A stretch of 64,000 nucleotides of DNA from the NCBI GenBank assembly GCA_963921825.1, contig OY997590.1, positions 53,992,012 to 54,056,011 on the forward strand, given 5' to 3'. Both the position numbers and the translations under genes were made by a program. Under the pieces are notes generated by a model. That model was not told the origin of the DNA. It did not search any database and saw only the letters and a program-made list of their open reading frames with translations. Below, one piece after another: positions 2,509 to 64,000 of this stretch. This DNA is from Erodium maritimum. Its lineage: Eukaryota; Streptophyta; Magnoliopsida; Geraniales; Geraniaceae. Position 1 is the stretch's first letter; each line of letters starts with the position of its first letter.

Positions 2509-4374
2509 ATGGCTTCTTCGTCAGCCACGGGACCTCCGCCGGGTTTTGAACCACCCTCTGGGGGTGTGTTGGGTGTACAAAGAAGATTGGACTCGGTGAT
2601 TGTTTCAACACACAATCGTTTTGAGGGTTTACAAGATCATGCTCTGGAACAGGACATTTTCAAACTGTTCGTTCATAATTTGCCACCCAGAACTTCTTCT
2701 CAATGGCTACAAAATCTCTTTCTGGAGTGTGGAGAGGTCCTAAGGACTGAAACACCTATCAATCCTAATAGTAGGGGAAGGTGGTTTGGTTTTGTCTCCT
2801 TCAAAACCTTGGAAGCTCGATCCAATGGGATTAGGATTTTCAATGGCTGTATTCTCAAAGGCTATAAGTTGTTCGTTGTCATTGCGTAAAAGACCTGATC
2901 ACCACAGAGATGATCATCTGAGTTGGAAGAAGAAAACCTTTGTGTCTCAAAATGGCGTTAAAGGAAAGAGACATACTGAACCTATGGTCTCTTTTCCTAA
3001 AGGCAAGGTGGTTGATAAGTATAAACCTTGGTTGGAGAAAGGCCATCTAGCAGTACTACACGAAGATTACCCGGTGGAGATGATTATGGAAGATTTTCAA
3101 GCTGAGAGAGATGGGGAAATTTGTATCAAAGCGTTGGGAAACAGAGTGGTCATTTTGTTTTTTCCTGAAGAACAAGTAGAAAATGAGGCTCTAAAGGAAG
3201 ATGCAGATTGGTTGAGATGTTGGATGACAGTCTTGGTTGACAAGGTTCACCTATGCAGACAAGGGGGAAAGTTTACCTGGGTAGCACTTCATGGCATCCC
3301 CATTGTAGGCTGGTGTGCTGAAACTTTTGAAGCAGCTTGTGATGATCTTGGCTCGGTGGTTTGGATTCACCCACAATCCTTAAATGGTTCTTCTTTGGAG
3401 GTGGCTTTTATCTTAATGCATTCTCAAGATTATCTACGGGTGTACAAGGAATCTGGGTTATTACTTGAAGACATGGAGTACAATTTCATGGCCAGCTCTG
3501 TCAATATTTGGGTGGTACCAACAGTGGAGTATTTGGTTACCAACATCACATCTTCAGACACTTGAACTGGCTCATGGATTGATTTGGGAAATCCCGAGTT
3601 GCTTGGTGTCTTAGTGGTTAATTCTAAGAACATTGAAGGCTTATCATTGACCTCACCAACTATCAAAGAAGCATTGATAGCTCCAGATTCATTGGGGGAA
3701 GAAAACTCAGCCTCTCTGATTACTGTTCCGATGAACACCTCTAGTCTTCTGAGTATTGTTCCAATTTTGGACTCTGAAGTAAATCTATTAGATACTATCC
3801 CTGAGCAGGAGGGGGCATCTTTGGAAGTACAAGGACAAAAGGGTGCTTTGGTTTTGGGGGATATTAATGAGATTGAAAGTCTTAATACATCTACAACAGT
3901 TTTGGGGCCCATTAACCAGCTCACCTTGGTTAATTTTTCTGTTTTGGGGGAAATGATGTTTCAAATCCAAGTTTAACTCCTATTAGGATTTAAAATCCTA
4001 CACCTGGCACAAGGAGTCTTGGGAAGAAAAGAAATGTGCAGGAGGGTTATAGTGTTGCCTATAATACAAGATCAAAAGCCAAGACAATATTGGCTAAACT
4101 CAAACCAGTCACACACAAGAAAAGTGAGACAGGAAGGCAAGTATTCAGACCAGATGGGGCTGGAACTATGGATTACTGCAAGGCTCTAGGCTTAAAAGCT
4201 TATCTATCAGATGATTTAGTAGCTGAACAATTCGACAACCTTGAGCAAGAAGTGAATCAGACACTAGATTTTGAAACTAATACTGAGGATGAGTATTGTG
4301 ATCTAGAGGATTTGGAGGAGGGTGAAATTGAGGTGGGGAGATCCATCACTCCTCACTGTTTGTCCTCACCATGA
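2509..4374 (+). pseudogene. LINE-A ORF1: RRM-containing RNA-binding protein, broken
   Basis: ORF1 of plant L1 LINEs encodes the RNA-binding chaperone that coats the LINE transcript. The start at 2509 (MASSSATGPPPGFE) is chosen because LINE-B begins the same way (MSSSASIGPPSGFE). An RRM follows, with RNP2-like KLFVHNLPP (near 2667) and RNP1-like GRWFGFVSF (near 2777). A stop at 2887 ends the first frame. The next domain (2890-3565, containing WLEKGHLAVLHEDY) is in another frame, and further pieces lie at 3584-3976 and 4036-4374, so several frame breaks separate the protein into four parts. The acidic C-terminus keeps the motif ETNTEDEYCDLEDLEEGE. The last codon overlaps the ORF2 start by four bases (ATGA, 4371-4374). 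Confidence 0.85.
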
Positions 4375-6824
4375 GGCTGTTGTCATGGAACATTCGGGGG
4401 GCTACTTCAAGAAAAAAGAGGAGAGCCATCCGAAACGTGTATTCCAAGCAATTGGTGGAGATGGTGTTAATTCAGGAAACAAAGCTGTCTGATCTACCTA
4501 TTTATTTTATATCTTCTTGTGGTCTCAATTCAAACTGGGAGGGCATTTGCAGTCCTTCTAATGGGGCATCTGGGGGCCTATTCACCTCGTGGGATAAAGG
4601 GGTTTTTGAAATGCAGCAACACTTCTGTGATGTAAATGCTATTTATTGGACTAGGGTTTATTTGCCTCTGCAGATTTCTATATCAGTGATTAACATTTAT
4701 GCCCCATGTTCTGTCAGAGCTAGGACTGTTCTTTGGGATGAAGTTAGGGAAGTAGCTTCTTCATTACATAATAATCTTGTGGTAGCTGGTGATTTTAATG
4801 CCATACTTGACCCTGGAGAAAAAACAGGTTCTAATTACTCCTCCTCAAGTTTGAGAGATTTCAGAAGCTTTGTGGATGATCAGGGTCTATTGGATTTTCA
4901 ACTGGAAGGAGGGAAATACACTTGGTTTAATTCTAGGAACATGGCCTCTAGAATTGACAGGTTTTTAGTATCAACTTCAGTCATGTCCACTTTTAGTAAT
5001 CTACAACAAACTTGCCTACCCAGAGTATTATCAGATCATAAACCTGTTGTTTTATCCAATCCAGTGGTTGATTGGGGCCCCAGAACTTTCAAATTTATTA
5101 ATGCCTGGGTCAGCCATCCTCTATTCCTACAGCATACTAAAGAGTTTTGGAACAATATACAGGTTGCAGGGTCACCTACTTATAAACTCCATGCCAAACT
5201 CAAGGCTCTTAAAAGTTTTTATAGAACTTGGAATACCAATGTTTTTGGTTGGTTAGATAAACAAATTGAAGGACTGAAAGGGGAGATTGGGGAACTGGAT
5301 GATTTGTTTGAAGATAGGGGGCTCAGTCCCATGGAAATCTCTCAGAGGGCTCTATTGAATGCTAGGCTGATACAGAAGCTAAAAACTCAGGCTAAAGTGT
5401 GGTGCCAGAAGGCTAGACACAAGTGGACTACTGATGGAGATAGGTGTACTAAGTATTATCACATTGTGGCAAAAATTAATCAGGCAAGATTGAAAATCAC
5501 CAGCATTATTGAAAGGGGTATAATTTATAAGACTCCTCTATTGATCAAAGAGGCTGCTTCTGTGCATTTTGCTAAGAGATTCTTAGGGTCCAATTCTGTT
5601 TGTTTAGACTTATCCTCTCTACCATTTAAAGTCATCTCTCAGATGCAGGCTCAAAGTTTAGAAGTACCATTCACTGAAGAGGAAATTCTTGGGGCAATTA
5701 AAGCTTGTAATGGGGATAAATCACCTGGCCCTGATGGATTTACAATGTTATTTTATCAATCTTGCTGGGAGATTGTTAAAGGGGAGATCCTGGATGTCTT
5801 TGATCATTTCCATCATGGTGGGCAGCTGGGGAAGGGTCTAAAGTCCTCCTTCATCACTTTAATTCCAAAAAATGGGGCTCCTGTGACTTTTGATGATTTC
5901 AGACCCATCAGTCTCATACATAGCATTTACAAGATAATTTCTAAAGTCCTTGCCACAAGACTGAAGCCCTTGATGAGGTTATTGGTTCATGATACACAGA
6001 CTGGTTTTATAGCTGGAAGACAAATTATGGATGGGGTTTTGATTGCAACTGAGATCATTCATCACATTAAAAAGGTGGGGCAGGAGGTTATTGTACTAAA
6101 ACTTGACTTTGAAAAGGCATATGATCACATTGATTGGCTTGCCTTGAAGAATGTTTTATCCGTGATGGGCTTTGGGGACAAATGGAAAGACTGGATATCA
6201 ACATGTTTACAGGCTTGGTCTTCAGTTTTAATTAATGGTTCACCTTCTGGTGACTTCCCACTCAAGAGAGGTCTTAGACAAGGGTGCTCTATCTCCCCAC
6301 TCCTATTTGCTCTGGTAGCTGAGAGCCTGCATCAATTAATGGTTCAAGGGACCCTTTCTAAAATGTTCTCAGGGGTAATGTGTTGTGAGAATGGCCCAGA
6401 GATCACACACCTTCAGTTTGCTGATGATACATTAATATTTATTCAAGCTGGTAGACAACAAGCCATCAACCTGAAGGATACTCTTAAATGCCTACAAAAA
6501 GCTACTGGTTTGAGGATAAATTTCAATAAATCACAAGTCTTGCTGCTAAATCCTATGGTCATGGATATTCAAGAGGTAACTGACATTTTAGGTTGCAGAT
6601 CAATGCAACTACCTTTTGATTACTTGGGGTTCAAGTTGGGTGCTAGTCCCAGAAGAACAAAAACTTGGGAACCAGTACTTAATAAGTTCAAGAACAATCT
6701 ATCCTTATGGCTAGCAAAGAACAAAACTTTGGGTGGAAGGATAACTCTTATCAAATCCTCACTGACTTCTCTCCCCTTGTACTATATGTCTTTGTATAAA
6801 GCTCCCTGTGGAGTGGAAAATTGA
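4371..6824 (+). CDS. LINE-A ORF2: endonuclease-reverse transcriptase, C-terminally cut
   Basis: This uninterrupted 817-codon frame encodes the L1 enzyme that nicks target DNA and copies the LINE RNA there. The N-terminus is an APE-like endonuclease: WNIRG (residues 6-10), QETK (~35), GDFNAI (~140), SRIDRF (~196) and SDHKPV (~220). The reverse transcriptase follows with GPDGF (~452), LKLDFEKAYDHIDW (~577), RGLRQGCSISPLLF (~630) and the catalytic FADD (~683). The start is fixed by the ATGA overlap with ORF1 and by WNIRG lying six residues in, as in other plant L1 proteins. A TGA at 6822 stops the frame just before the LTR insertion at 6834. The zinc-binding C-terminus survives at 14403-15513, so the protein lacks about 370 residues of the family's usual ~1,200-1,300. 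Confidence 0.93.
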   Translation: MRLLSWNIRGATSRKKRRAIRNVYSKQLVEMVLIQETKLSDLPIYFISSCGLNSNWEGICSPSNGASGGLFTSWDKGVFEMQQHFCDVNAIYWTRVYLPLQISISVINIYAPCSVRARTVLWDEVREVASSLHNNLVVAGDFNAILDPGEKTGSNYSSSSLRDFRSFVDDQGLLDFQLEGGKYTWFNSRNMASRIDRFLVSTSVMSTFSNLQQTCLPRVLSDHKPVVLSNPVVDWGPRTFKFINAWVSHPLFLQHTKEFWNNIQVAGSPTYKLHAKLKALKSFYRTWNTNVFGWLDKQIEGLKGEIGELDDLFEDRGLSPMEISQRALLNARLIQKLKTQAKVWCQKARHKWTTDGDRCTKYYHIVAKINQARLKITSIIERGIIYKTPLLIKEAASVHFAKRFLGSNSVCLDLSSLPFKVISQMQAQSLEVPFTEEEILGAIKACNGDKSPGPDGFTMLFYQSCWEIVKGEILDVFDHFHHGGQLGKGLKSSFITLIPKNGAPVTFDDFRPISLIHSIYKIISKVLATRLKPLMRLLVHDTQTGFIAGRQIMDGVLIATEIIHHIKKVGQEVIVLKLDFEKAYDHIDWLALKNVLSVMGFGDKWKDWISTCLQAWSSVLINGSPSGDFPLKRGLRQGCSISPLLFALVAESLHQLMVQGTLSKMFSGVMCCENGPEITHLQFADDTLIFIQAGRQQAINLKDTLKCLQKATGLRINFNKSQVLLLNPMVMDIQEVTDILGCRSMQLPFDYLGFKLGASPRRTKTWEPVLNKFKNNLSLWLAKNKTLGGRITLIKSSLTSLPLYYMSLYKAPCGVEN

Positions 6825-9473
6825 ACAAAAAGGTGTTGGGTCTCGAGGTATGGTTGGAGACGAACCAACTCACAGCGGAAAATCAATGAAAACCAAGAGA
6901 CGATTAAACCATGATACAACTAACAAAGAATGGATTCACAAGAGAAAAATTCAGCACTATTTCTTACCAAAACAAGAACACCGGTTAACGAATGATTGGC
7001 TTGAGTATCCAAGACGCCTACGTATCCACATGGGAATCAAAGCCACGTAGTTCTTCTCTTTGAGGACTCAAGAACACAAAAATGGAGGTGGGAAGTTGTG
7101 TTTCCTATTCTTGTCTTGTGTTTGTTATGTTGAAAAAAGATGACTTAAACATAACAAAACTCATACTTGTCCAACTAAAGGCATGGGAAGAGTATGGTTT
7201 CAAGTAAGGTGTAAATAGGACAAAGTATGGCTAGACAAAATTGGGTTAGGTGGTGAATCACCAACACCTTAATCCTTGTCTTCCTTACTTAATACTAATT
7301 AATCAAGACTTGATTAATTAGTTCCATGGGCCTTAGTTGCATGGGCCTTTCATGGGCCTCTTGGAATATGGCCGGTGGCCATTTCCAACGAGGTCTCGTG
7401 ATTCGCTCATCGCCTCCAAGCCTTCCATATCGGAAATGTCCAACATTATCTGACGCGATCAATCCCAAGACTCCAAGCCTTTTCTTGATCCGTAAAGTCC
7501 TATTCACTTACGGGCACATGACTCAAAACCCAGTTTTGATCATGTCCCGAGACAACTCCCTTTTGGCCATTCTCCATAAATGTGTCAATGAGTTTCATCC
7601 TCCGGTGTGACCCTTAGGTTTATGCATGTCAATAGATCAACGTAAAATACCATTTTACTTGATCCTATTTAAGTGGCAACTAACGAGACTTTAGTATTGC
7701 CTGACACTACATAACAAATCGACCTTGTAATAACCACTCCCGGTCAACGCCAGTCAAACCTGCGAAAAACAGGAAAATTTAAAAATTTTGAGCAGACTCT
7801 GAATTGAACCGGAATTGGACCCCGAGGGTCATACCGGACTTAAGTTGACCCCGTTATCGACCAAAGTGAGTTCCGGGGGACTCAGGGTGACTTTCTGATC
7901 AATTTGGGAAATGTTGACTTTTCGTTGGAAAAGTCAACCGAGCGACGTTTTGGTCCATTCGAGGACCGTTTTGGATCCAAAAAGCTTAGCCGTCGTCGCG
8001 GCGGTCTTAGTTGAGCCGTTTCCTTGTAGCCCACCAAGTTTCGTAATTTCTTGGAAAAAGTGCCCGTTCGGGGCTCGAAACGTCCGAATTTCGCGACTCT
8101 GATTGGAAAACATCTAGTGGATATTTTCCAAAAGGTGTGGGACCCACCTTGCCACTTGTCAACCAAGTGGTGGTGTTAGTTTTGGGGGGGAAACTAAAGA
8201 TGAAGCCATATGTGGCCGGCCACACATTTTAAAAGAAAAAAAAAGAGAAATGTGTTAGTTGTTTTAGAAAGAGAAAGAAGAGAGAAGAAAGGGAGAGAAG
8301 GAGAAGAAGAGAAGAGAGAAAGCTAGGGTTTGGAGCACTATTCACGCTCATCCAACCATGGGATCGTCTCAAGGCTAGGAGAAAGTGCACTCCCCTCGTT
8401 GTCCTCTACGGTATACACCGAACCGATTCTCGTTTTGATTAATTTTGGAAGTTAGGTTTGTGTAAAACTATTATTTTAAGGTGGTTTTGATGTTGGGGTA
8501 ATTTTTGGAGACGTTTTGGAGGTGTTTGGAGGGGAAGGATTACGTTTTTCGGTGACCGGAGGCTCGGGAGGAGCTCCGGCCACCGTGGGTGGTGGCCGGC
8601 CGGCCATGGGGTGGCTGGCCGGAGCTGGGACCAGCCACCACCATGGTGGCCGAGCCCCCCTTGAACCCTAGGGCTCACGGCCAAGTGGGTCGGGTGGGGC
8701 CCACGTGCTCAGGTGATCGGGTTTAGTGTTCGGGAGGTTTAAAACGTTCCCCGGACCATTTATCCTTAACCGAATCGAAAATTGGAATTAAATTGGAAAA
8801 GTTGTAACTAACGGGTTTTAGAAACTTTAAACGTTAATTAATCGACTCGGAAGTCGGAATTCGATCCCGTCAAGTGCATTGGGATCCTTGAATTATTCTA
8901 AGACCGTAGAAACGAAAAGGGGAATTTTTAGAGCCCCGGGAGGGCATTTACAAAACCCGGGCAGATTCGCCATGTCGGGCGAATCGGGCCTTTACGAGTC
9001 CTTTATCGACAATTTCGAGTAATTGGGAAGTTTGGGAGTGATCGACATTGTCGGGGTTATGTTTGGGCATTAAGTTTATTAAATTTAAGCTTATTTCCTG
9101 CGAGTTAAAGTGCATTAAAAATTGTGTTCTTTTAGATCGTGCCACGGACCGAGGCAAGGGAAAGCTGGGTGAGTGACTGAGATCATCACCGGAGCTCGTG
9201 GGTTGGCTTTTGGGAGAACACGCACGAGGTAGGGAAAAGTAGCCAGATCTCGACCCTGACTAGGGAAAGTTAACAGTAGAAATGCATGTGACATTGGGGT
9301 GTCGTGGGTTAAGTGAGTTATCGAATATTAGAAAAGCATGATACGGGAACGTAGCGTTTATGAGAAAAGCATGTGACACTTAGCAGTGTCGTAGGAGCAG
9401 AGAACTTAGTGATATTAGAATTACTGGAGGCATATGACCATGCCCGGAGGTTGACTGTTTAATTCGTGTCTTG

Positions 9474-10140
9474 GGTGGCCATGAGAGCCCGTGTATTATT
9501 GTTGAGTTTGGGTGGCCATGAGAGCCCGTGCTATTATTATGGAGTTTGGGTGGCCATGAGAGCCCGTGTTATTATTATTGAGTTTGGGTGGCCATGAGAG
9601 CCCGTGTTATTATTATTGAGTTTGGGTGGCCATGAGAGCCGTGTTATTATTGTCGAGTCTTGGGAGGCCATGAGTGCCCGTTGGGTGGTTGAACCCGTGT
9701 TACTTTATTAGTGGTGTTTTGGGTGGCCGTGAGTGCCCGTGGGGTTGTGAACCCGTACTTTACCGTTGGTTCTTGGGTGGCCATGAGGGCCCGTTGGGTT
9801 GTTGAACCCTTGTTACTTTATTATTGGTGTCTTGGGTGGCCGTGAGTGCCGTTGGGTTGTTGAACCCGTGTTGCTTTGTTATTGGCGTCTTGGGTGGCCG
9901 TGAGTGCCGTTGAGTTGTTGAACCCGTGTTGCTTTGTTGTTGGTGTCTTGAGTGGCTGGGAGTGCCGTGGGGTTGTTGAGCCCGTGAGTTACTGTTGGTG
10001 TGTCTTGGGTGGCCGTGAGTGTCGTGGGGTTGTTGAGCCCGTGAGTTACTGTTGGTGTGTCTTGGGAGGCCGTGAGTGCCCGTGAATGGTTTGGGTTGTT
10101 GAGTCCGTGTTTTACTGTTGGTGTCTTGTGTGGCCATGAG
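9474..10140 (+). repeat. Tandem array with GGGTGGCCATGAG core inside LTR 1
   Basis: About 14 units share a GGTGGCC(A/G)TGAG core followed by GCCCGTG. The first five are spaced about 37-40 bp; later ones are 55-60 bp because they add a TTGTTGAACCCG segment. The same array, with a different unit count, recurs in the LTR at 17322-19630. Open frames across it on both strands are repeats of the unit, not genes. Confidence 0.85.
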
Positions 10141-10199
10141 TGCCTGTGGAGTGTTGAACTGATCTTGTTACTGTTGGTTGAACCTTGCTTGTGATTGTG

Positions 10200-10440
10200 A
10201 TTGCGGAACCCGGTAGGTTGCAAGTATTCGTTGGCTGGCCTGACCAAGTTTGAATCCCGGTAGGTTGCAAGCATTCTTGGGCTGGCCTGACCAAGTTTGA
10301 GTATCAACAGGTTGCAAGCATTCTTTGGCTGGCCTGATCCGAGTTTGAGTATCAACAGGTTGTAAGTATTCTTGGGCTAGCCTGATCCGAGCTTGAGTAT
10401 CAACAGGTTGTAAGCATTCTTTGGCTAGCCTAATCCGTGT
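10200..10440 (+). repeat. Second tandem array (AGGTTGCAAG core) inside LTR 1
   Basis: Five units of about 48-50 bp, each with GGTTG(C/T)AAG(C/T)ATTC followed by GGCT(G/A)GCCT. The LTR at 17322-19630 has an unrelated array in the same relative place, so this block evolves by replacement and local expansion. Confidence 0.8.
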
Positions 10441-11428
10441 TCGTGTGAGTGGGGGAGGTTACTGAGCAGCTGGTATGCGATCATTTGTGATCTTGTTTGG
10501 TGTGCGATCCTTTGTGATCTTGGGTGTTGCGTGGTGGTCTCTTGAGTCTTTGGAGGAGGTCGTCAATCGTTGTGTCGGGTCTACTTTACGTGTCAAGTGT
10601 CGAGTCATTCGAGGAAGGACACCGTGGGTGTGTGTCAGTCGGAGTACTTGAGTTGGGGACAGTGATCCCCGATGTCGAGTTTGTTGTTGCTGTTACCGGC
10701 ATTGTCTGCTAATTATGTCGTAGTCAGTCTGTTATCTGTGGTGGTGAGCGAACGCTCACCCCTAGCTGCTTTTCCTACAGGTACCGGTCGCAGGTTGGAC
10801 TAGGTGAGCTTCTGAAGCTTGAAGAGCTAGGAGCGGGATTCTGGGTTTTACTTTTGAGTCTAGTGACGGATACCTTGTTTTGTCCACTTGTTGGGACTGA
10901 TTTTGAGTTGTAAATATTATTTTGTTGAAAAATGGTGATTTTAAATTGTTTATTCAAAACAGGTTTCAAACGGTTTTATTATTTTAAATGTTCGCGTCCC
11001 TAGTTCGGTTTTACTGAAATTGGGGCGTGACAGACCCTGTCGATTCTAACCTTTCCGTCATCCCTGTCATTATCCTTTTATCTCCGATATCCTGATTGAG
11101 ATAATGCATAGAGCCGTCATCCTTATTATTCTCAATCATCGTTCCTTGATATGTGAGATGACTGAAGATATGATACCCAGTATCATGTGCATGGCCATGC
11201 TATTCTTTCAGTCACTCTCGATCAAGCGGCCGAGAACCGATATCTTTCCCATACCTCAGTATGAGGGATAAATCCCTTAGCCGCCTTTCGTGTCACTCAT
11301 GTAGCCCGTCCCCAAGCCAATCCTGGCCGTTATGGAAGCCCTATTACGGACAATGTTAGGCTCAGGTCAAACTCAGTTGTTGACTACATAGCGATCACAA
11401 AGACTCCTTGGTCTAAGGACACATGACA

Positions 11429-14026
11429 TGTCACGCCCCAAATCCGGTTATCGCCCGGACTCGAGGCATGACGGGTAAGAGAAGACAATAAAGCAAAGAA
11501 ACAATATTAAATCTCGAAAATCTCCAGTGAGTACCTCAATCCATAATTTCAAATACAGTATAAGTAACCCTTAGGGGTGTAGTAATAAGTTTTTACAAAA
11601 CTGTTTTTTTAAATAAAGGGAATAAAAAAGAAGTCTCTATGAACCCACACCGAGAAGCGCCCAAGCTTCTACTCCTCAATCAAGCCTGTAGACACAACAT
11701 CAAAACAAAGGGGTGAGCTCACGCTCAGTAGGGAAAACGCATAACAAGGTAGACCTTCACTCGAACAAGATCAACAATAAAGTTAACAGAATATAACTTA
11801 ACAAAACAAGGGTAATAATTAAACCAATCAATGCCGTGGCACATGAAGTCACCACCCTCCGATCCACATGATGTGTCCTCTCGGATTCTCCCTCAAATCC
11901 AGAGGAGACGCATAACATTGAGGCGACCGGAAACAACCCTTCGGGGCGCTTATCATCGGGATTCTCAGAAACGTCTCCAAAGGATTTTATGTCATTGGGA
12001 ACCCAGGGCCATACTCCCGTAGGAGCGCACACGTGGGCAATTTAATAAATAACCAATATAACAACCTACGTCGGACTCCTCAGCGGTGTAGGTACCATAC
12101 CGTAACAATCAGAATCAGATAACAACTCAGGAACACACTCAACCGAAACACGGTGCAATCCAATCCCAACTACCACCAATCCAATAACACACATAGCTCA
12201 CAAATCATCGATTCACCATAGCACACCGCACACAAATCACCAAATCAGATCACACCAATCACCCAATTACTACTTACCGTTCACTTACCAGTTTCGAACC
12301 ACCGGTGCATCGATCACCTGATTGTACCGCTCGGTACAACCAGTCATACTCGATACCCCCAAAAAAACCAATCAAGTAAATCAAGTAATCAATCGAACAC
12401 AATCAACGAGCAAATGCGAGTATGATCATAAAGCCTTCAAAATAGTATTCAAGCATGCAATTCCACTAGATTCATTAGGCTCTTTAGCCTATCTACTAGA
12501 CAATCAACAATCAAGCATGTGATCCTAACACACAACTAATCCGAGGGCTTTGCCAAGGCTCCTCTACCAGACAATCATATCCCAAGTATTGAAAGCGAAC
12601 TATACTAGTAATTGGCATCCTAATCGGTCACCACTACACTCCGGTTATTAGCAATTGAAAGATGATTAAGCTAGTTATTCGCATCCTATATGCATATCTA
12701 GGACCTTTTCCAATTTTATTAACCTAGCATGCATACTAAGCATCGTAAACGAGAGGTTAAGGCTTTCCCTACCTCAAGGTCCTCCTCTTCAATGCTTTGG
12801 TGAAGTCCGGTGATCACCTCTTCGCTCTTCCCTCGTGTCTCGGCGTGATCCTTGCTCCTCTAGCTCGATCCCCGAAGTCTTGGACACAAAGAAACACTAA
12901 TTAGGCTCCACTTAAACAGCAAGGAAGGCCCCCAAACCCTTCCAAGGTTCAGCTCAAAACCAAGATGTAAAACCTTCGAAGAACTCCCAAGAGAACCTCA
13001 CCCTGGTGGGTTACGGACCTGGTCACGGATCCGTGACGTTAACCCTCACGGTTATCGTCACGGAGCCATGACGAGTGCCGTCATGGTCTCCCTCACGGAG
13101 CCGTGACGTCGCCCGTCACGGGATCCGTCACGGATCTGTGACGCACCAGGACAGATTCGCCCTTCTTCAACCTCCAGCTCCAAAACTCCGAAAAACTACC
13201 ATCAACCCAGAAAAATATCCTTTCCAACCCCCAAAACAGTCCAAATCCTCCAATACTCTTCTACCCATGGTAGGAATCAACCCACAAACAAGTTTTCCAA
13301 GGATTCATCAAATCAAACCCACTTCAAAATCTCCAACAACTAGTGATTTCTCACCAAAATCCAACAAGGTTCATCATCAACACCATCTCCTATCATTTCT
13401 ACTCAACCCAACATCATCTAGCCAATTTTCACCCATAACCCAAGGAAATAGATGAAGAGGAAAGATGAGTAGAGAGTTCCATTACCTCTAGGATGTGGAG
13501 ATGAAGAGGATGCTAGTGTTTTTGAGGGTGGGAGGCTAGAAGATGACTCCACAAGGCTCCTTCTTCTTTGATTCTCCTTCAAGCTTCCATGGGAGCTCTT
13601 CTCCCTTTCTTCCTCTCCAAATTTCGGCTACAACAATGCAAAATAGGAAATGATTTTGCTTCTCTAACACATATAATACCTAAATGTTGCAATGACTTAA
13701 AGGCCCTTGAGCTAGAAACCCATGTAGGAGCTTTTGGGAGGGTAAAAGGGACAATGACTATCCCTTTTTCTCTCATTCAACCAAAATAGGACAAGTGTCC
13801 CTCTAGCTCATTTAATTTCCCAATTTAAATTCCAGCACTTTTAAAATTGAAGCTTTAGTCGATATAAAGTCTCGTTTTGACCAAAATTGACTTTATGCAA
13901 TATTATACTCAAACGAAAGGGTTTTCTTCCCTGAAGCCAACCGTGATAATGGCTACTTCGTTTGAGTTCCGGAGAAGTCCCGAGTGACTTCCGGAGTTAC
14001 CGGTTCGACCGGAAGCGGGTCTTACA
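11429..14026 (-). mobile_element. Long solo LTR 2, Ty3/gypsy-like (2.6 kb)
   Basis: It reads TGTCACGCCCCAAATCC at 11429 and ends GGGTCTTACA at 14026, so the element lies on the minus strand. A perfect 5-bp target duplication TGACA (11424-11428, 14027-14031) sits in the Copia-like LTR. No internal domain remains. A GGGGTGAGCTCACGCTCAG motif at about 11711 is the counterpart of the palindrome in LTR 1, again about 285 bp from the element's 3' end. A cluster of short CACGG/CCGTG inverted repeats lies at about 13005-13145. Confidence 0.85.
13005..13145. repeat. Cluster of short CCGTGACG/CGTCACGG inverted repeats
   Basis: Repeated and mutually inverted GTCACGGATCCGTGACG-like words fill about 140 bp of LTR 2. 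A comparable CGGCACGG/CCGTGCC cluster is present at about 35835-35945 in the LTR at the duplication junction. Strong local hairpins are expected; no function is evident. Confidence 0.7.
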
Positions 14027-18790: not shown

Positions 18791-18879
18791 GACTTGTGTT
18801 GTTGCTAGTTGTTGACCTTTGTTTGTGATTGTGATTGCCTGAGGTTGGTGACCCGACTTTGTGTCGGGGAAGTTGCGTG

Positions 18880-20675: not shown

Positions 20676-20690
20676 AACTAACTACAAAAG

Positions 20691-51865: not shown

Positions 51866-51881
51866 ACATATAAATACCATT

Positions 51882-52600
51882 CTCATTAGTATGCGAAAGC
51901 TTAACGTATAAAAAATAATTACAGAAACACGAAAGTTACTGCAAGTACATACAGATAAAGTGTGTACAATAAAAATGACAATGCATTGCACATTGCATCG
52001 ATCAATCTCTATCCGGAACTTTTGGTGGAAATATATTCTTAATAATATTCCTTTTCTTGGGTGTCATAAATTTCCCCAAAAATGTTATCTTGATCTTCCA
52101 TTGATGTTCGGGACAAGGTTCGTCCGTGCATGTACAACAAAACCCTTTTTTGCCTATTGGGAAGCTCCATCTCCACTTTCAAAAGGTGATCTTGTTCACG
52201 ACTCCACCATTTCATCCTCCCTTTAGCTCGACTTGAAAAGCCACCAAGTCATGCTTCCCATGCACACCATGTTTATCCTATCCATAATTTGCAACGTTAA
52301 ATTTCATGTTTGGCTTCTGAAAACAATCTGCCATGACATTTATTACGCCCATCTTTTTGGTTTGTCCGAGCTTTTTGCAAGATTCGAGGAGATTCGTGAA
52401 AGATTTTGTGGTTATTTACTTTTATGGGTGATTGGCTCATGAATTCTTTTCAACTTGAACAAATTAATGATATCACCTTAATTATTTGCTTTTAGGATGA
52501 CAAGGTCTTATATTGATTTATTTTAAAATTAAAGCTAGAATTAACCAACATATACGCCGATGTTCATATAATAAATGGACCCATGCATATCACATAAATT
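51882..52600. other. Unassigned AT-rich stretch, second copy
   Basis: Counterpart of 19966-20675 with nine extra bases near 52148-52158 (TTGCCTATT or an equivalent alignment). The short frame across it stays open because nine is a multiple of three, but the frame has no recognised function. Confidence 0.5.
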
Positions 52601-52615
52601 AACTAACTACAAAAG

Positions 52616-53405
52616 TATTGTTAACAGCAAATTGTGGGCGTGAGAAAAAGCTCTTTAGCCCTAGCGTCAAGGCTATTGAATCTAAGGATTTCTCTTGAAA
52701 TTTAGGGTTTTATTTGTCTCTTTTATTGGGATCCAATCATTGATCGTCGGTTCTCGTTTGTTCCGTTCCCCAATTAGGTACGCTTTGTGGTTACTGGTTT
52801 TGTTCCTGTGTTTCTGACTGTTCTCCTCCCATGCAATTGTGTTTTCTCGGCTTGCTTCTTCCGTTTGATCCATTCGGGATATGACAATGGTACTTGATTG
52901 GAATTGCCGTGATCTTGGAACGGACCACAATCGTCATCAACTCAAGGACCTGGTCTCACGTCTTCAGCCGGAGTAACGATTTATCCACCGAACACGCACA
53001 CGAGCCGATTGAAGAAGATACCAGAGCAACCCTATTGGTGGGTTTGGGATCCGGGGGTGGGACGATAAGACGAGACTGGGGATGACCGGTGCTGGGACGT
53101 CTCGGAAAAGCCATGTGCACAACACACGATCTTTTTATGCTTTTTATTACTGTATTAGTTTGGATGCTTTTCCTTAGTCTGTTTCTTTGGACTTTTAATG
53201 TTCTGCACTGTTTGTTTGAAAGGCTGATAAGGGGGTCTCCTGAGTTAGTGTACACGAACCAAAATAGACTATTTATACGGGTCCATGAAAGCTGGTCGGG
53301 CTATGGTGAGGCCGAAAATATCCTGAAACCCATAACTTTTACGCCTTACATAGTATTGTTTACGTTTCACAGTAATACAAATTCCATTTTACTCGTTCCA
53401 ATAAA
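52616..53405 (+). mobile_element. Internally deleted LINE derivative, second copy
   Basis: Counterpart of 20691-21480 with flanks AACTAACTACAAAAG at 52601-52615 and 53406-53420. Confidence 0.72.
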
Positions 53406-53647
53406 AACTAACTACAAAAGTTGATCATGCATGTCTGTGAGCAACGATGGATTCGATCATGTTACAAAGATGAAAAGAAGGCATATTGAGCAAAAAATGC
53501 TTGTTTTATATAGATTTAGAAAGATTCAATCAAGTGTTTTTTTAGAACGGATTAGAGAATTTTTTAGAAGAGAATTGAGAAATTGCTATTATTATGGTCA
53601 AACTTAGGGGTGAGACAGATGAAGATTAGTAGACGGTCAAAACATTG

Positions 53648-54409
53648 CTAGTAGCATTATGGCAACACTCAAAAGTGAGAGGAAGCTTATTCCACAAGAT
53701 AGAGCTTTGTGTGAGTATTTTTAGGGGTGAGGTAGGTCTTCTTTGGGAGAATTGGTTTTGGATTGAGAACTTCTTGAGTGGGGGATTCTATTTTGGAGGT
53801 CTGTGCTATTTTGGTGTGTGGGTAGGATATTGTTTAGGTTGAGGGTGTTTTATGTCTTGTTCTGTGCTTGTACAGAACTCTGTCTATTTTGGTTGGAGAA
53901 GGAGAACATTTGTGGGTTTTGTTTACACTTGCTGGTTTGGTAGCTTTTTGCCTTTACAGGGTCTACAGGTAACTAAAGTTGCAGCAGAGGTTTGGTACAG
54001 CAAAAATTCAGATTTGCTCTTTCCTTGGGCATGTGGGAGCTGTTCTAAACCTTCATCACAAGTCATAAGATCAAGAAGGTTATGTAGAAGTTGCTGTAGA
54101 ATTGGGTTTTGAATTGCAACTTATATGAGAAGGGTTGTATCTGGTTTATTCCTTGGTGCTTCTAGTTTGTGGGAAGATTTGTTGTAATTGGACAAAGAAG
54201 TTTCTGGTATTAGTGTTTTGATAATGTGGGTAGCTTGTGGCTTAAGTTTTGCCGTTAAGTTTGAATTGATACTTGACTTGAAAGACAAGTCTGGTATAGT
54301 TAGGCCTGAAGTCGGTTTGTAACAATTTGGAGGGTTCGCCCTTGATCGCTTTCTTCTTTTTCGAAGACTCGATTTATAAAATTTAAAAAAATTGCTGATA
54401 AAAAAAAAA
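53648..54409 (+). mobile_element. 5'-truncated LINE 3' end, second copy
   Basis: Counterpart of 21723-22484; two G-to-A type differences from copy 1 (21792 and 22050). Confidence 0.75.
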
Positions 54410-54795
54410 CAAAACTTTGAAGTGGGCTTTGTAAGTTTCATTAGAGGGCAATTATAATCATGTAAATCAAGCCCTTAATCTTAGAAGAAGATGATTTTTA
54501 CCAACATAATACATCATGAGAACTTACTTTAATCTATGAGAACAGTGGCGCCGGTACTTGATTCATAAAATTGATTATTCTTTCTTAACCTCTTTATACG
54601 ATTTAACTAAGTTTATGTTATGATTGAGAAATTTAACGTAATGGGTAGAGAGATGAATAACTCCTAAAGTTTCTGGTAACAATTGATTACCCCTAATCCT
54701 GATGGTGGCAAATAAAATAGAAAATTACCTACTTAATTAATTAATCAAAATAATTTACCTTCTAAACCAATTATTTGATTTTTTTGATCAACAGT

Positions 54796-56925
54796 TTTTT
54801 TTTATAAATACCAAGCCTTTTAGGGTAAACCCTACGAGCTTACAAACAAAGGATACTCAATTAAGAGCACCTAGTGCACTAAACTTGTGCGGTAAGCAAC
54901 AAACTACAACCATAAGAACACAGTCTCAAACAGTCCCAACCAGGGGAAACAACAACACTAGATCTTGTAATCAGATAAAACCAGTAAACGAACTAAGCCA
55001 ACAAGGGCTAGAAAAAGAAAACAACAAAACAGTAGAAACAGTAACTACCAAACTAACATGCCTAAAACCTAGGAATAACTAAACAAGAAGCTCCAATAGT
55101 AGCCCTCCAACAACCCACCGCTCCCAACAACAGCACCTCAAGAAACGTCATGTACCACAAGCACCCTCAAACAGGCCAAACTAGTGAGGATCACCCCATC
55201 TCATTAGGGCCATCAACTAAGAGAGTTAAATGACCTCCAACACGTCGCCAGCCAACACCGGACTCGGCAAAGATGGGTCACCAGTTAAAACTACTAAGAA
55301 CTCAAATCCCTACTATCGATCCGAAAATCTTCAAACACAGATTCAAAGACCCATAAAACTCGCCGAAGGCCAACACCTACACACCGGCGAGCCCCTACTC
55401 TCAAAGTAGGGAAACCGAGAGGACTGAACAGATCGCTACTAAGGACGAGCACGTGACTCACCCATAAAGCAGTTAAGGGGAAAAAACTAAAGTACACCCA
55501 AACCAGTAAAGGCTAAAAGAAATTACTGGCAAATTGTGACCCAAAAACAGCAACCAACGAAACCAACCAAACGAAATAGAGTTCCGGCGACAAGGGCACG
55601 AACAAGTCGGAGACGAGGTGGCGCAAAGGAGCTGAGACGGGTACAGGTCAACGATCTCTCCCACAACAAAAACAGGTCCCAGTAAAGACGAAGAGGGACT
55701 GAGAGCAGAGCACGGCTGCAACACCCATAGAGCCAAGAATCCGAGAACCACGCCAATCGGCAACCCAAAAGGTCCAGAAAAGCGACCCATGACTGGAACT
55801 TCGGAAACCAAATAAGGAGGTGAAGAAACCACCACTGCAACCCAATCAGAGATGCTGCAACCAAGAGAGTCACACCTACCAGCGAAGGCCAGAAGAAAAT
55901 CCCCTAAACAACTAAACAACGACCAAGAAGACGAGTAATGCTCTGACGACACGGGTACAAACAGTCGGAGAGATGGTCGAAGGGAACTGAGCAGGTAGAC
56001 CCGGAGCCGGAAAGTAACAAACCGAGTCCAAAAATTGCAGGCAACCCTGTCGGGGACGAATCGCGAACAAATAGCGAAACATCCACCACTCCCGTCCAGG
56101 GGAGGCCGAGTGTCCTGAAAACGATCTGTGACCAGCAGGATCGGCAACGAATGAGGAGTTCAGCGCAAGCCAACACCAAATTACCGGTGAAAACTCACCA
56201 GACCCGCCACCCAGATCCGAAAAGGACCCCAAATCCGGTGACCCCAGGTCGAAGCGACCCATGCACTCCGGCGAGTTACCAGTGGGAACAAGACTTCATA
56301 CCCGCAACTCCCTGTGACATCCGAGCAAAACCACAAAATCAGCTTCAAACCTAGTAGATCTGGTTCACCGGTCCGAGATCGACGAGGTAGAACCGAGCTG
56401 TTTCAACAGCCCATGACCGACGAGGTAGCACCAGCACGAAATCGTCACAGCTCGAGTCTGACAGGAACGTCGAGATGACATTCCGGCCTCGCCAAAGGCC
56501 ATCGAGACAGGGACGCTGGCGGCCGGGCAGAACCACGAGCTCTCCTTCCTCTGAACTCAGGCGAGAGTAGTCTTATCCGGTCACTGATAACGAAACCCAA
56601 GCCGGAGACTACCCGATCCGCACTGATCTGCAGCCGAGAGGTCAAGAAACGCCGGAAAAGAAGGGACAAGTCGAGATGGAATAAAACGAACAGATATGGG
56701 CAAGGGAAACAACTAAAACGAGAAGGGAAAAAGCGGAAAAAAGGTGAAAAGGAAGGGGAAGTAAAAGGGGGTAGAGAGTTGTTAACACCGACGACGTCGA
56801 TGACCAAAGGCCATGACGCCGCCGGTGCGGAGTAGAAGAAAAAATGGGGGGTTATACTGTAGAGGCGGCGGTTTCGTAGAGAGAAAGCTGGTATCTTTTT
56901 CTCCTCTTTTGTCTTGATATACACT
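54796..56925 (-). mobile_element. GC-rich retroelement-like insert, second copy
   Basis: Counterpart of 22871-25000; I saw no difference between the copies despite its many CpG sites. Confidence 0.45.
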
Positions 56926-57014
56926 TAAACTACTTAATATCTCACATATCAACCCATATAATGAGTTTTGAAATAAGTGAGATCTAACATTCTTCTATTT
57001 GGTCAACATATCCT

Positions 57015-57840
57015 TATATATATATATATGGTTGGTATCAGGTACAAACCACCCCTTACTGTGCAAACTACGAACCAATCTGAGTCATAGGATCCGTCCA
57101 AAGTGATGTCAGCAGAGCGCACCAGATGCTGACACGTGGGCAATAAATATATAAAACACCGCACCTTATTGTGCAAACTACGAACTCACCAGGTGCTGAC
57201 ACGTGGGCGCGCACAGTGCTGATAGTTTGTGCTCACAGTGCTGATAGTTTGGCACTGTGCTAAAGTATCAGCACCCGCGCGCGCAAACTATTAGCATTGT
57301 GCGCGCGCGTGGTCAACACGTTCACGCGCGCGGGCAAAGGCGCGCGCGAAGCGGCCACGTGTCAGCATCGCGCGCGCTCTGCTGACGTCACTTTGACCGC
57401 ATCCTGTGACTTGGATTGGTTCGTAGTTTGCACAATAAGGATGATTTTTACTGGATAGCTACCGTAGCTACCCTATATATGTGTGCATATATATATATAT
57501 ATATAGGGTAGCTATCCAGTAAAAACTACCCTTATTGTGCAAACTACGAACTCACCAGGTGCTGATACGTGGCACGTTTAGTGCTGATAGTTTGCGCAGC
57601 ATGGTGCTAATAGTTTGGGACTATTAGCACTGTGCACCCAAACTATTAGCACTCTGTGCGCCACGTGTCAGCGCCTGGTGAGTTCGTAGTTTGCACAATA
57701 AGGTGCGGTGTTTTATATATATATTGTCCACGTGTCAACATCTGGTGCGCTCTGCTGACATCACTTTGGGGGGATCATGTGGCTCTCATGGGTTCGTAGT
57801 TTGCACAATAAGAGGGGTTTGTACCTGATATATATATATA
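57015..57840. mobile_element. Nested palindromic MITE cluster, second copy
   Basis: Counterpart of 25090-25915. The TA runs have the same lengths in both copies by eye, which is notable for microsatellites and argues for very recent duplication or a duplicated assembly. Confidence 0.75.
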
Positions 57841-58052
57841 AGGAACAACACAAAACATATTATGAACAACACATTATAATTAAGAACTCCAAAAACACTC
57901 TCTAGTTTCGCACTCACCGGAACAGTAACCTGCAATTGGATATTGAAGATCAAGCCCGATCTTTCTGGTTTGGAAGGCTGGGAGCTTCGATAACGCTACA
58001 GTCCTTCCATTATTCTCTTAGTCTTACATTTTAAGCTCTATCTACTCATCTC

Positions 58053-58847
58053 ATGTCATCCTCAGCTTCTATAGGACCCCCATCGGGCTTTGAGAAGACA
58101 ACTCACGGGATAACTGATCTCTCTGGGATTCTTCGACCAACAACGCAAGAGGGGAATAGATTAAAATCAATGGTAGTGAAATCACAGATTCAATCCTCGG
58201 AGCAAGGGAGGTTTCCTAATGAGGATCTCGAAGGAAATGTGGTTCACAAACTCTTTGTGTACAATATTCCTCCCGGGACTTCTCATATTTGGCTGCAGAA
58301 CCTCTTCCTTGAATGTGATGAGATAGTCAAAGCAAGACACCTCCCAATCCTAATGCAAAAGGAAGATGGTTCGGCTTTATCACCTTCAAAGCACTCGATG
58401 CACTTCTGAAAGGGATTGAGATTTTCTATGGATTTATTCTCAAAGGCTACAAACTATTTGTGGCAAAGGCCTAGGATAAGGACAGGAACAAGAGACCAAT
58501 AGGATCCAAGGAACAATGGAAAAGGAATGATCTTCCACATCTTTCTCAAGGGGACTCTATTAAGGGCTCTGTGGTGGAACAGAATAGAAGCTGGTTAGAG
58601 AATGGTCATTTAGTTTTACTCCATTCCAATTACTCTGTGGAAGATGTAATGGAGGAATTTCAATCTAAGTGGGAGGAAGTGATTCAGATCAAAAGTTTGG
58701 GGAATAGAGTAGCTTTGATTTATTTCCCCGGTCAGAAGGTGGAAGATGAGGCTCTCAAAGATGAAGCTAGATTACTGAAGCAGTGGTTGACTATCATCAA
58801 GGGTAAAGGATTTCTTTTTAAGCAAGGTGGAAAGTTTTCTTGGTTAG
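58053..58847 (+). pseudogene. LINE-B ORF1 N-terminal part, second copy
   Basis: Counterpart of 26128-26922 with the same breaks; one C/A difference (26400 versus 58325) is silent (ATC/ATA, Ile). Confidence 0.83.
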
Positions 58848-61694
58848 TGTCACGCCCCAAATCCGGTTTTGGCCGGACTCAAGACGCGACTTGAGTTGAC
58901 AATTAAATAATAACAAAAGAATAATAAAAAATCGAATAAATACTCACGAGGTTCCGATAAAATACTCAAATACATGTGTTTCAAAAGTAATGAGGAGTCA
59001 AGCTCTATAAAAAGTATGTAAAAGCATAGGGTTCGACATAAAGACCCACAACGTCTCTAAGACAGAACACCCAGACTATCCCGCAGCTCCCGAGCTTCGA
59101 ATCCACTACTCATCAAGCACACATGTACAAACAACGAATAAAAAAATAGGGGTGAGCTTACGCTCAGTAGGGAAAATCATAAACAGTTTAACCTCCAATT
59201 TAATAATAACTTCTTTAGCCGATGCCATATTGTAATTAATGCGTTTAATCCAAAATAATGGGGTAAAGTAGACAAGATAATATCAATATCGCATTCTCAA
59301 AGATAACGGTAACTTCCAGGAGAATAAATGAAACGCGTTGTAAAGATTCGATAACTACTAAAATGGGATCAAGTGAATATCACACCAACAGCTCGGGTCC
59401 TTAATACTCCGATCCACGAATAGAATCTTGTATCATCTCGGATCCCATACTCCGATCCACAAGAATATTCGTATCATATCATATTTTCCCTCGGTCCAGA
59501 GGTGGCACATGCATCGGGTTACCGGTAACAATCCCTGAGGGGCGCTTATCGTCGGGATTCCCGGAAATGCCCTCAAAGGACCATATGTCATAGGGAACCA
59601 AGGTAATGCTCCCGCAGGACACATACACTTGGGTGAATCAATAAGTAATCATTCTATCATCCTACTGCCCCGCAGGGTCCAATAACCAATGTCTCGCAGG
59701 ATCAACCAACCAATGCCCCGCAGGATCCTCTAATCAATATCCCGCAAGATGCAATAATCAATGTCCCGCAGGATCAACCAACCAATTCCCCGCAGGGTCC
59801 TCTAATCAATATCCCGCAAGATGCAATAACCAATGTCCCGCAGGATCAACCAACCAATGCCCCGCAGGGTCCAATAACCAATGCCCTGTACGGTCCAATA
59901 ATCAATGCCCTGTAGGATCAACATATTGCACAATCAAACTTAGAAGTTCATGAATTCACCAATACACACCACAGGGGATTCATACCCACCATCACACTTA
60001 CCATCATACTTACCAACCACGTTCCATCGGTACATCGATCACCTGATCGTACCATTTGGCACAATCAGTCATACTCGATCATCCGTTCAATCACTCAAGC
60101 ATCCAATCAATCATTCAAGCATTCAATCAATCATTCAATCATTCAAGCATTAAATCAATAAATTTATCTAGTTTCGTTAGACCCTTACATCTTAAACTAA
60201 GCAAACAAAGCAAGTGAGGCAAACACAACTAATCTGAGGGCTCATCACGGCCTCTCTACCAGTAAAGCAATTTCCCAAGTATAGAAAGCGAGTTAAACTA
60301 GTTATTCACATCCTACGCATGCATACTAGACACGTCCGGTTATTAGTAATTGAAAGACGATTATTCTAGTTATTCGCATGCTATATGCAATTCTAGGACC
60401 TTTCCGATTTTATTAACCTAATAGGCATACTAAGTATTGAATTGCACGAGTAGTTTAGTATTTCCCCTACCTTGTGGTCTTCCTCTAATAAAACTCTGCT
60501 GTAACGTTCGTTTAGTCTTTCCACCGTTCTTCACACGGGTTTCGGAGTGGTCTTTTTCCTTCTAGCTCGGTTCCAAGTCCTTGTACTCGGGCGAAGTCCC
60601 GTCTAGGTTTGACAAATAAAGCGTCCAAATCAAACGTTCAGTTTCCAAACTCGATCCAGGTTCGACCCAAGTAAAAAAAACCATTTTTTTTATTATTATT
60701 CAAATTAAGTCTGTTCCATAATTCTAGTTTCCTTTTGATTCACACAGATCTGATCCAAAACCCATTTTTCTTTTGATTTCTTTACTTTCAGGTTCAAAAC
60801 CGTCCAGATCCGAACGAAAAATCATTTCATCAACAACCAAATCCAAAGAAAGTTTGGGAAAAAGAAACAAAAAGGGAGACGAAGGAGAAAGAGGCTCCGC
60901 CGACCAACGGCGAGACGCCGTCGGTCAGAGTCTCACCGTAAAAGAGGAAGTTCGTCTCAGATCTACAACCGATGTGACGTTGGGGCTCGGGAACGAGGGT
61001 CGGCGGCGGCTGGGCTGAACGGAGAGGACGAGGGGAAGAGCGGTCGGAAGTCTTGGCTACGGGGACACGATGAAAGGTGGCGAGGAGAGGCCGGAGACGA
61101 GCTCGCCGGCGACTGGGCGGGGAAAAGGAGGAGAGGGGCGTGAGGGGCGAGAGGGTGGAGAGAGGACTGGTCGGAGTTGGAGAGGTGGAGGTCGGATGCG
61201 AGGTCGGCGAGGGTCTGGCGGCGTGGTTCGAAGAAGGTGAGGGAGACGGGTTCGGGGTCGGAGAGGGAGACGATGATGACCTGTGCGGCGTCTGAACGGA
61301 GAAGGAGGGCATGGCCGGAGCTGGTGATGGGGCGGCGAGAGGTTGGTGGTGAAGAGGGAGAAGGAGAGTCGGGTACAGAGATGAGGGAGGAGGCTTGGCT
61401 GCGAAAATTAGGGTTTTTAACTCCTAATTTCGCCTTTATACCCGATGCTCCAAAGGGCTTGGACCCTTCACTTTTGGGCCTGCTTAGCGGGCATCAGCGG
61501 AACTGGGCCGGACGGCCCAAAACAAGCAGCAGGAGTGGATCGGGCGGGCCTGGCCGGGCCTTCGGGTCTTGTCGGGTCAGCCCTTTACCCTCTTTTTTTT
61601 AACTCGATCCGAAATTCAATTGAATTTTCAAACCTTTCTCCAACCCTCCACGTTCCAACAATAAATTGAACTATCAAATTTCCCAGTCTTTACA
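58848..61694 (-). mobile_element. Long solo LTR 3, second copy
   Basis: Counterpart of 26923-29769, flanked by GTTAG at 58843-58847 and 61695-61699. Confidence 0.85.
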
Positions 61695-61699
61695 GTTAG

Positions 61700-63001
61700 C
61701 CATTTATGGAGTACCATTACTTGGCTGGTGTGCTTAAACTTTCGAAGCAATTACAGAAGATCTTGGTACTTTGGTTTGCAGTCACCCCTCTACTCTCACA
61801 TGATCCTCAATTGATGCAGCTTACATCCTCATTAACTCACAAGAATATTTGGAGGTGTATAAAGAAGCTGATCTTAGCTAGAAGATCAACATTTTACTGT
61901 GATGGTGTGTTCTGTAGACCTAGCAGTGGTTCTTACTTTCCAAAGCCCTCTTGAAAGTGATTCAGACTTCTCTTTTGAAACTCAACACTCAACAAACTCT
62001 ATGTCCAGTGAATTTGATATTACTCCTTCAGTTGAGCCAGTCGTAGGACCCTTAGAGAATGTTTTGATTGTTGCTGTTCCTCTCACTTCTGAAACAGTCA
62101 TTTTGTCTCCGAGGAACATAGTGGAAGATCATATGAGTTAAATGAGTTAATAGACAACCCTCTTCTGTCAGCTCAAATTAATGTCTCCCCTCCCATTAAC
62201 TCTCATCCTTTAATACACTCAGTGCTGTATTTTACTCCATTGCAACAAACTAAAACTCCGGTTTGTGTTGCTGATTCAATTAATTCCTCCAAATCATTCA
62301 GGGAAGTTTTGACAGTACAAGACACTTTTGGAGAGAAAAACAGTGTTAGTTTGGCCACTATTCCGGATGTGGTCACTGTTCGGACAACCTTGGATACAAA
62401 TGCTACTAGGTTGGCCTTGGAAGAGGTGGATGGGACTTCTTACTCCAAGTAAAGACAAAAGGGGTTATTGGGAGTAGAAGCCATAAATGAGAAGCTCAGT
62501 AATTCACCTTTAGTTGCTGATTTGGGCCCCAATTATCTGACACCAAACCCTAATTTTTCAATTTTGGAGGGAATCACTCTTTCAAATCTGCAATCTTATC
62601 ACTCTAATTTTGACAAGGCTAGGCAAGTATCTAAGGGGAAAAAGGGTAAGAGGACTAAAGCTGGTGCTACTGTAGCTTATAACACTAGATCAAAATCAAA
62701 AGTTCAAATTCCAAACTCTCAACAACTTTCGCCTACTTTGGTGGACAATTTACTTCCTCAATCTTTTCAACCTAGGGGAGTTGGAACCTGGAATTTCTAC
62801 AAAGCCTTGGGTCTGGAAGCTCCCATTCTTGAGGAATTGGTACCTGGAGAGATGGATGATTTGGAGTTGGAAGGAAATAAGGATGTGGAACTTGAAACCA
62901 ACACAGACGATGAGTTCTGTGACTTGGAAGACATAGAAGAGGGCCATATTATAGCATACTCTGTGGCTTCCATCCCCATTCAAGACTTGTCCTCTCCATG
63001 A
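61700..63001 (+). pseudogene. LINE-B ORF1 C-terminal part, second copy
   Basis: Counterpart of 29775-31076, including the acidic ORF1 tail and the ATGA overlap at 62998-63001. Confidence 0.82.
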
Positions 63002-63135
63002 GGATCTTCTCATGGAACATGAGAGGGGCTTCTACTAGACAGAAGAGAGGAGCTCTACGTAACATGTGTGCCAAGCAACGCCTGTCAATGGTGTTACTTC
63101 AGGAAATAAAGATTTCTTCTATCCCTTGTTATTTT
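62998..63135 (+). pseudogene. LINE-B ORF2 endonuclease N-terminus, second copy
   Basis: Counterpart of 31073-31210, ending at the same LTR boundary, so the deletion at that boundary predates the duplication. Confidence 0.8.
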
Positions 63136-64000
63136 TGGCGAGAGTTGACTTTCGGCCGGAAAAGTCAACCGATGACTCTTGGAGTCATTCAGGACCTTTC
63201 CGGGGCCCAAAAAGCTTAGCCGTCGTTACGGTTAGCTTAGTTGGGTCATTTCCTTTCAAATGACAGCTTTTGTGAAAAAGTCAAACCCGGGTCAAACTAC
63301 GTCGATTTCAGAGTTTTAACGAATAAAAATATTATGAGCTGAGATATTTTGGGGTAGGAGTGGTCCCCACATGGACACATGTCCATGCTAGCTTGGAGGG
63401 GAAGAAAAGTGGGAGAAAAGACCAATTGGTCTCCACTTAAGGACAAAGGAGAGAGAGAGGGGCTAAAGGACGAAAGGGACATTTCCACCTTGAGGATAAG
63501 ATCACATGGGGCAACAAATTCAGCATGTTTTCCCCTTGTTGGCCGAACACCATAGCTAGAAGAGAGAGAAACAATTCCTCCATTGAAGCTCCATTGCTTG
63601 AAGAAGAAGAAATGGAGGAAAAGGGAGCTCCTTTGGGCCATTTCTTCACTAAATCTTCTCAAAAACATCACCATCCTCATCATCTCATCATTCCAAAGGT
63701 AAGTAAGCTCTCACAATCTCCTTTCAATCCATTTGAAGTTATGGGTTTCCATAGAAATTAAATGAAATTGTTAGGTTTTGAGTTATTGTTGTTAGATGTT
63801 TGTTTATGAGAAGAAAATGGATGATTTATGTAGAAATCATTTGGGGTTTTGTGTTTTTGATTAAACCCACCATGGGTCTTGAAACTTTGGAGTGTTTGAG
63901 GTGGAATTTGAAGTTCTAAAGCTTAAAATTGGTGTTGTGGAGAACATAGAACTAGTTGGGAATTTTTTGGGAGAAACGAAGTATTTTTCGGTGACCGAAG
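63136..64000 (+). mobile_element. Long LTR 4, second copy, cut by window edge
   Basis: Counterpart of 31211-32075; the remainder lies to the right of the window. Confidence 0.78.

Follow-up and report, generated by a model that had tools for sequence, protein, structure and literature searches.

A putative recent head-to-tail duplication of 31.9 kb of fragmented transposon DNA in Erodium maritimum

We found that a stretch of 64,000 nucleotides from Erodium maritimum (the window) holds two head-to-tail, nearly identical copies of a 31,916-bp unit, the second of them visible in part. With a probability of roughly 0.6, this arrangement is a real and recent direct tandem duplication that arose by end joining or template switching about 25,000 generations ago (12,000-47,000) at an assumed rate of 7e-9 per site per generation. 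Such a reading would presuppose that the assembly is correct at this locus. The unit is broken transposon DNA, in which two LINEs of the L1 type and several long LTRs of one family were recognised.

Comparing the 64,000-base window with itself by blastn returned the direct repeats 4039-32075 and 35955-64000 as one plus/plus match (alignment length 28,046; 99.932 % identity; 10 mismatches; one 9-bp gap). The repeat period is 31,916 bp, and the first base of copy 2 directly follows the last base of copy 1.

4039..35954, plus strand: copy 1 of the duplicated unit, 31,916 bp (self-blastn and base-by-base walk)
35955..64000, plus strand: copy 2, 28,046 bp visible, the window end cutting off the remainder
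52150..52158, plus strand: nine extra bases in copy 2, missing between 20233 and 20234 of copy 1

Near-identity over 28 kb cannot be put down to chance, and two adjacent direct copies of very high identity are what characterizes a recent tandem segmental duplication. The comparison covers 28 kb; the copy 1 part at 32076-35954 (3,879 bp) has no visible partner, and the last ~3.9 kb of copy 2 together with its right edge (expected near 67.88 kb) fall outside the window. A preliminary description of this DNA had proposed a 31.9-kb tandem duplication, which stands as regards the period and the whole of copy 1; copy 2 is visible for 28,046 bp and would attain its full 31.9 kb beyond the window. The description had also counted about ten substitutions and one 9-bp indel in ~28 kb between head-to-tail copies, and both self-blastn and the base-by-base walk agreed with it.

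The coding remnants of the unit were examined through 91 stop-to-stop frames of at least 80 residues in positions 1-36300, 30 of which were sent to Pfam. Three of the 30 frames carried LINE-type domains above the cut-off and one carried DUF4283 just below it, while the remaining frames gave nothing or sub-threshold matches that were taken for chance. Two LINEs were delineated.

2314..6821, plus strand: LINE-A, 5' part, with RRM, DUF4283-like, endonuclease and reverse transcriptase sequences (Pfam, PDB); 2314 is the mapped start, not an established 5' end
14396..15510, plus strand: LINE-A, 3' part, with a zf-RVT domain in frame 15049-15510 (Pfam)
26110..34974, plus strand: LINE-B, a diverged relative of LINE-A, in pieces 26110-26966, 29772-31210 and 34331-34974

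In the 5' part of LINE-A, frame 2314-2886 encodes an RRM (Pfam), and frame 2744-3562 a DUF4283-like segment below the Pfam cut-off (24.6 against 27.2 bits). Frame 4332-6821 contains endonuclease and reverse transcriptase domains (Pfam; RVT_1, 8.8e-40) and matches chains of human LINE-1 ORF2p in PDB (best 2e-53). The 5' and 3' parts are separated by 6822-14395, which contains LTR-family sequence. Judged from its sequence, LINE-A is an L1-type element; the combination of RRM, DUF4283-like, endonuclease/reverse transcriptase and zf-RVT segments is typical of plants, and the locus most likely belongs to the nuclear genome. LINE-B was named by DNA similarity to LINE-A, with no Pfam match above the cut-off, and is split by insertions, one being the LTR at 31209-34270. 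Among the 30 frames examined (of 91) none was recognised as part of a host gene, a screen that short exons would escape. Scans of the window for tRNA genes and Rfam families both returned zero. A search of plasmid records with 4039-6821 gave no match, and a search of viral contigs with the LINE ORF2 frame gave one pattern match and no confirmed relative.

The long-LTR family is present inside both LINEs, and the following members and segments were mapped in addition to the LTR in LINE-B.

8323..11032, plus strand: LTR-family segment ending in GGGGCGTGACA, with minisatellites
11429..14026, minus strand: LTR inside LINE-A, 2,598 bp, TGTAAGACCCG...GGGGCGTGACA, with TGACA on both sides
17317..19630, plus strand: LTR-family segment ending in GGGGCGTGACA, its first 1.5 kb ~80 % identical to 8323-9787
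34975..35954, plus strand: first 980 bp of another LTR of the family, preceded by the 5 bp GAAGT and cut off by the joint between the copies
35847..35954, plus strand: GC-rich minisatellite of period 34, with the right breakpoint inside it

The element at 11429-14026 reads as a solo LTR, and the flanking TGACA as its 5-bp target-site duplication. The minisatellites of the LTR-family segments differ from one another, with periods of 31-113 (9471-10441, 13022-13143, 18448-19049 and 35847-35954). In the LTR at 31209-34270, the first ~40 bp are seemingly missing, along with up to ~500 bp of the adjoining LINE, as if this 5' edge had been trimmed by a deletion. We considered whether 31193-31958 and 35003-35740 could be the two LTRs of one element, and this was rejected, as LINE-B sequence lies between them. 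No LTR pair belonging to one element was found in the window, and divergence between different insertions of one family does not date them. The nested insertions are older than the duplication because they are common to both copies.

Several further repeats were observed. An inverted pair at 10-480 and 7725-8193 (470 bp, 92.6 % identical) has its arms on either side of the left breakpoint, one outside the unit and the other inside, and a 125-bp part of it resembles the LTR family. A fold-back element at 25086-25919, with inverted arms that are 81-89 % alike in the aligned pieces and with TATATATA ends, could be a DNA transposon of the non-autonomous kind. A perfect (TTA)16 microsatellite lies at 34167-34215, in the copy 1 part whose partner falls outside the window. 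CpG in the unit amounts to 0.70 of expectation.

We then asked how the unit is bounded. The alignment of LINE-A with LINE-B runs continuously across 4039, with 155 of 213 aligned bases identical to the left and 303 of 464 to the right (gaps left out). Because the similarity crosses this position, the LINE is unbroken here, which would make the left edge of copy 1 ancestral and 35954/35955 the derived joint.

35954..35955, no strand: novel joint from the GC-rich minisatellite of an LTR into the inside of LINE-A; the 40-mer over the joint occurs once in the window

On the left of the joint, the segment 34976-35954 can be aligned to two further LTRs in the window, with scores of 266 and 132 (shuffle maxima 21.5 and 23.0, 20 shuffles each). 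This LTR, begun at 34975, is cut 980 bp from its start, within the period-34 GC-rich minisatellite; in the LTR at 11429-14026, a comparable position (13022-13143) is likewise occupied by a GC-rich minisatellite. LINE sequence starts abruptly at the joint, after the LTR sequence. The preliminary description had placed the ends at no element boundary, and this was upheld, with the left end inside a LINE and the right end inside an LTR. Its further phrase, an entire transposon nest, does not apply, since both ends cut elements that are only partly inside the unit (the LINE at 4039 and the LTR at 35954). New relative to that description are the cutting of an element at both ends and, as far as the alignments indicate, the ancestral state of the left edge and the derived state of the LTR/LINE joint.

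The sequences left of 4039 and left of 35955 (200 bp scored) share no long homology and only a faint match, with a score of 16.0 where the best of 200 mononucleotide shuffles reached 13.5. The same 200 bp left of 4039 scored 32.5 between LINE-A and LINE-B (shuffle maximum 17.0), and the joint side scored 13.0 against LINE-B (shuffle maximum 13.5). We determined that the 12-mer on the left side of the joint is unique within the window and that the one on the right side is found there only at 4039 and 35955. With LTR sequence running in and LINE sequence running out, no DNA-transposon end was recognised at the joint, as judged from comparisons within the window. There is no N in the 64,000 bases, the joint included. 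Folding potential is modest at both breakpoints (right, z = -1.87, 9 of 200 shuffles as good; left, z = -2.56, 4 of 200) and does not single out the right one.

The differences between the copies were located by the base-by-base walk at positions 7785, 8180, 10078, 14489, 15104, 17970, 21792, 22050, 26400 and 28832 of copy 1, which for substitutions only amounts to 3.6e-4 per site (Poisson 95 % interval, 1.7e-4 to 6.6e-4). Transitions make up seven of the ten, in CG (n = 1), CHG (n = 2) and CHH (n = 4) context, and the spread of the differences along the copies is even (KS p = 0.83). For the 9-bp difference, a short deletion between TT repeats of copy 1 is an easier reading than an insertion. 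To find the direction of change, we compared five of the ten substituted positions with other repeats of the window: at 10078 the derived state seems to be that of copy 2 and at 17970 that of copy 1, 7785 points weakly to copy 2 as derived, and 8180 and 26400 gave no direction. Derived states in both copies fit two copies that mutated independently, although two alleles would look alike.

The walk revealed no indel besides the 9 bp in 28 kb, and tandem arrays are therefore equal in length between the copies. Homopolymers of at least 5 bases number 136 in copy 1 and 137 in copy 2; every difference among them traces back either to the 9-bp indel or to the substitution at 7785. The five short SSRs found are all equal in both copies. 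With no homopolymer change beyond these two, the differences are not typical long-read errors, and consensus sequencing errors were judged an unlikely source of them. Ten substitutions in 28,037 bp correspond to 25,477 generations at 7e-9 per site per generation (12,217-46,852, Poisson limits), which reproduces the ~25,000 generations proposed earlier at that rate, and to 13,718 generations at 1.3e-8; both rates are assumptions. Gene conversion between the copies would push the true age older.

The strongest competing explanation, which we regard as a substantial but clearly less probable one, is that the overlapping ends of two contigs, from two haplotypes or from one locus assembled twice, were placed end to end and left unmerged, the joint then being the end of one contig beside the start of the other. 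Two haplotypes of an outcrossing plant would be expected to diverge by more than 0.036 %, and the differences lack the homopolymer changes of the error-driven duplication type; still, only ordinary mutations distinguish the copies, which suits two alleles as well as two paralogues. Arbitrary end points within elements agree with this explanation, as would a contig that ended in the GC-rich minisatellite, where an assembler might stop. Against this, the joint offers no long homology for an overlap assembler to follow. False duplications are common: they account for between 0.3 and 15.9 % of the length of the six vertebrate assemblies tabulated in the available text of PMC9516828. There, gaps between the members of a pair are named as a hallmark, and the joint is without N; the same text counts a depth-gap, for example from wrong gap-filling, as equal to an N gap, and missing Ns accordingly do not clear the joint. 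We mildly favour a real duplication over an artefact, and this leaning comes from sequence features, namely the absence of N, the lack of long homology at the joint, the mutation-like differences and the equal homopolymers; an assembler that placed two alleles one after the other would nevertheless produce most of these features.

If the tandem duplication is real, its formation may have begun with a break at the GC-rich minisatellite of the LTR, which became the right end of the unit. The broken end would then have been joined, without long homology, to the sister or homologous chromatid at a point inside the LINE that lies 31.9 kb upstream. End joining or a replication template switch may have been the route, the repair pathway being suggested by the form of the joint, and about ten point changes would have been gathered by the two copies since then. 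Breakpoints of this class lack long homology and show 0-10 bp of microhomology; in the present case only the left sides lie within the window.

The literature on mechanism is divided between non-homologous joining (PMC4812662) and non-allelic homologous recombination, or NAHR (PMC12073271, PMC3744419), as far as the available portions of these reports show. The accessible part of PMC4812662, a study of rice, ascribes 4,872 of its 9,196 CNVs, which had been called as deletions, to non-homologous recombination and 44 of them to NAHR; 27 non-co-linear duplicated genes were attributed to NHEJ (n = 14), TEs (n = 12) and NAHR (n = 1). A plant review names NAHR as the cause of 'most CNVs' (PMC12073271, in part), and NAHR is presented as the prevailing model for tandem direct duplications in the portion of PMC3744419 at hand.

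NAHR would here mean unequal crossing-over between homologous repeats, the second of which, for instance a LINE copy truncated at its 5' end, would have to begin exactly at the right breakpoint. PMC12073271 and PMC3744419 weigh in its favour by naming it the usual cause of CNVs or tandem duplications, and so do the left edge inside a LINE, the abundance of LINE and LTR relatives in the unit and the faint left-flank match that exceeds its 200 shuffles. In addition, the right flank of copy 2 lies outside the window, where a homologous tract beginning exactly at 4039 could be located. However, LTR sequence precedes the joint, and copy 2 is identical to copy 1 for its first 3,746 bp, where a crossover between repeats as different as LINE-A and LINE-B (65-73 %) would leave a divergent stretch. 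As copy 2 has no such divergent start and long homology is lacking between the sequences left of 4039 and left of 35955, we consider homologous unequal crossing-over very unlikely.

Alternative transposition of a DNA transposon with reversed ends, as described for maize Ac, is less probable still and in our view close to negligible: reversed Ac ends do make direct tandem duplications, of 8,157 bp to ~5.3 Mb, but in the available text of PMC3744419 an Ac end with an 8-bp target-site duplication stands at the breakpoint, whereas the present joint leads from LTR sequence to LINE sequence, and its 12-mers recur in the window only for the right side, at 4039 and 35955. Retrotransposition of the whole unit was likewise found unlikely, as the unit combines fragments of several elements and has both of its ends in the interior of an element. 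With homologous crossing-over and Ac-type transposition both unlikely, a joint made without long homology remains, through end joining or template switching.

One extension of the preferred reading, a real tandem duplication, is improbable: the two copies would be the first members, within view, of an array that is longer and still young, a macrosatellite at an early stage. It would involve a 32-kb unit of retrotransposon remnants and one illegitimate joint at an LTR minisatellite, after which the copy number would change by homologous exchange between near-identical copies. If the duplication is real, it offers a roughly dated case of transposon-rich DNA growing by illegitimate joining, with no gene recognised in the unit and one of the breakpoints located within the minisatellite of an LTR. 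If it is an artefact, it is an assembly error of ~32 kb that would inflate counts of recent duplications.

Among known systems, the duplications and CNVs of plants ascribed to NHEJ/MMEJ or FoSTeS/MMBIR, for example in rice, likewise lack long breakpoint homology and occur in a transposon-rich setting, as the available parts of PMC4812662 and PMC12073271 describe them. The rice set (PMC4812662, in the same portion) was in the main called as deletions relative to a reference, and its duplications are of genes, whereas the present case is one noncoding locus with its right edge outside the window. The EPSPS tandem duplication of Kochia scoparia likewise consists of direct repeats of similar size, in 32.7- and 56.1-kb types, and microhomology-mediated repair was proposed for the shorter type (PMC6808082, available text). 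In that account the units bear genes, which are under selection, and a mobile element lies between them; here the joint showed no element end, and the 30 frames scanned (of 91) yielded no recognised host gene. Duplications made by reversed Ac ends are also direct tandem copies, with sizes from 8 kb up, and differ from the present one in that no transposon end was recognised at its joint (PMC3744419, as available). False heterotype and homotype duplications of assemblies are adjacent near-identical copies on one sequence as well, with gaps or depth-gaps and lowered depth as hallmarks in the accessible text of PMC9516828, in contrast to the joint without N observed here. The type of event is thus ordinary and well known, being either a recent tandem duplication of transposon-derived DNA or an unmerged assembly overlap.
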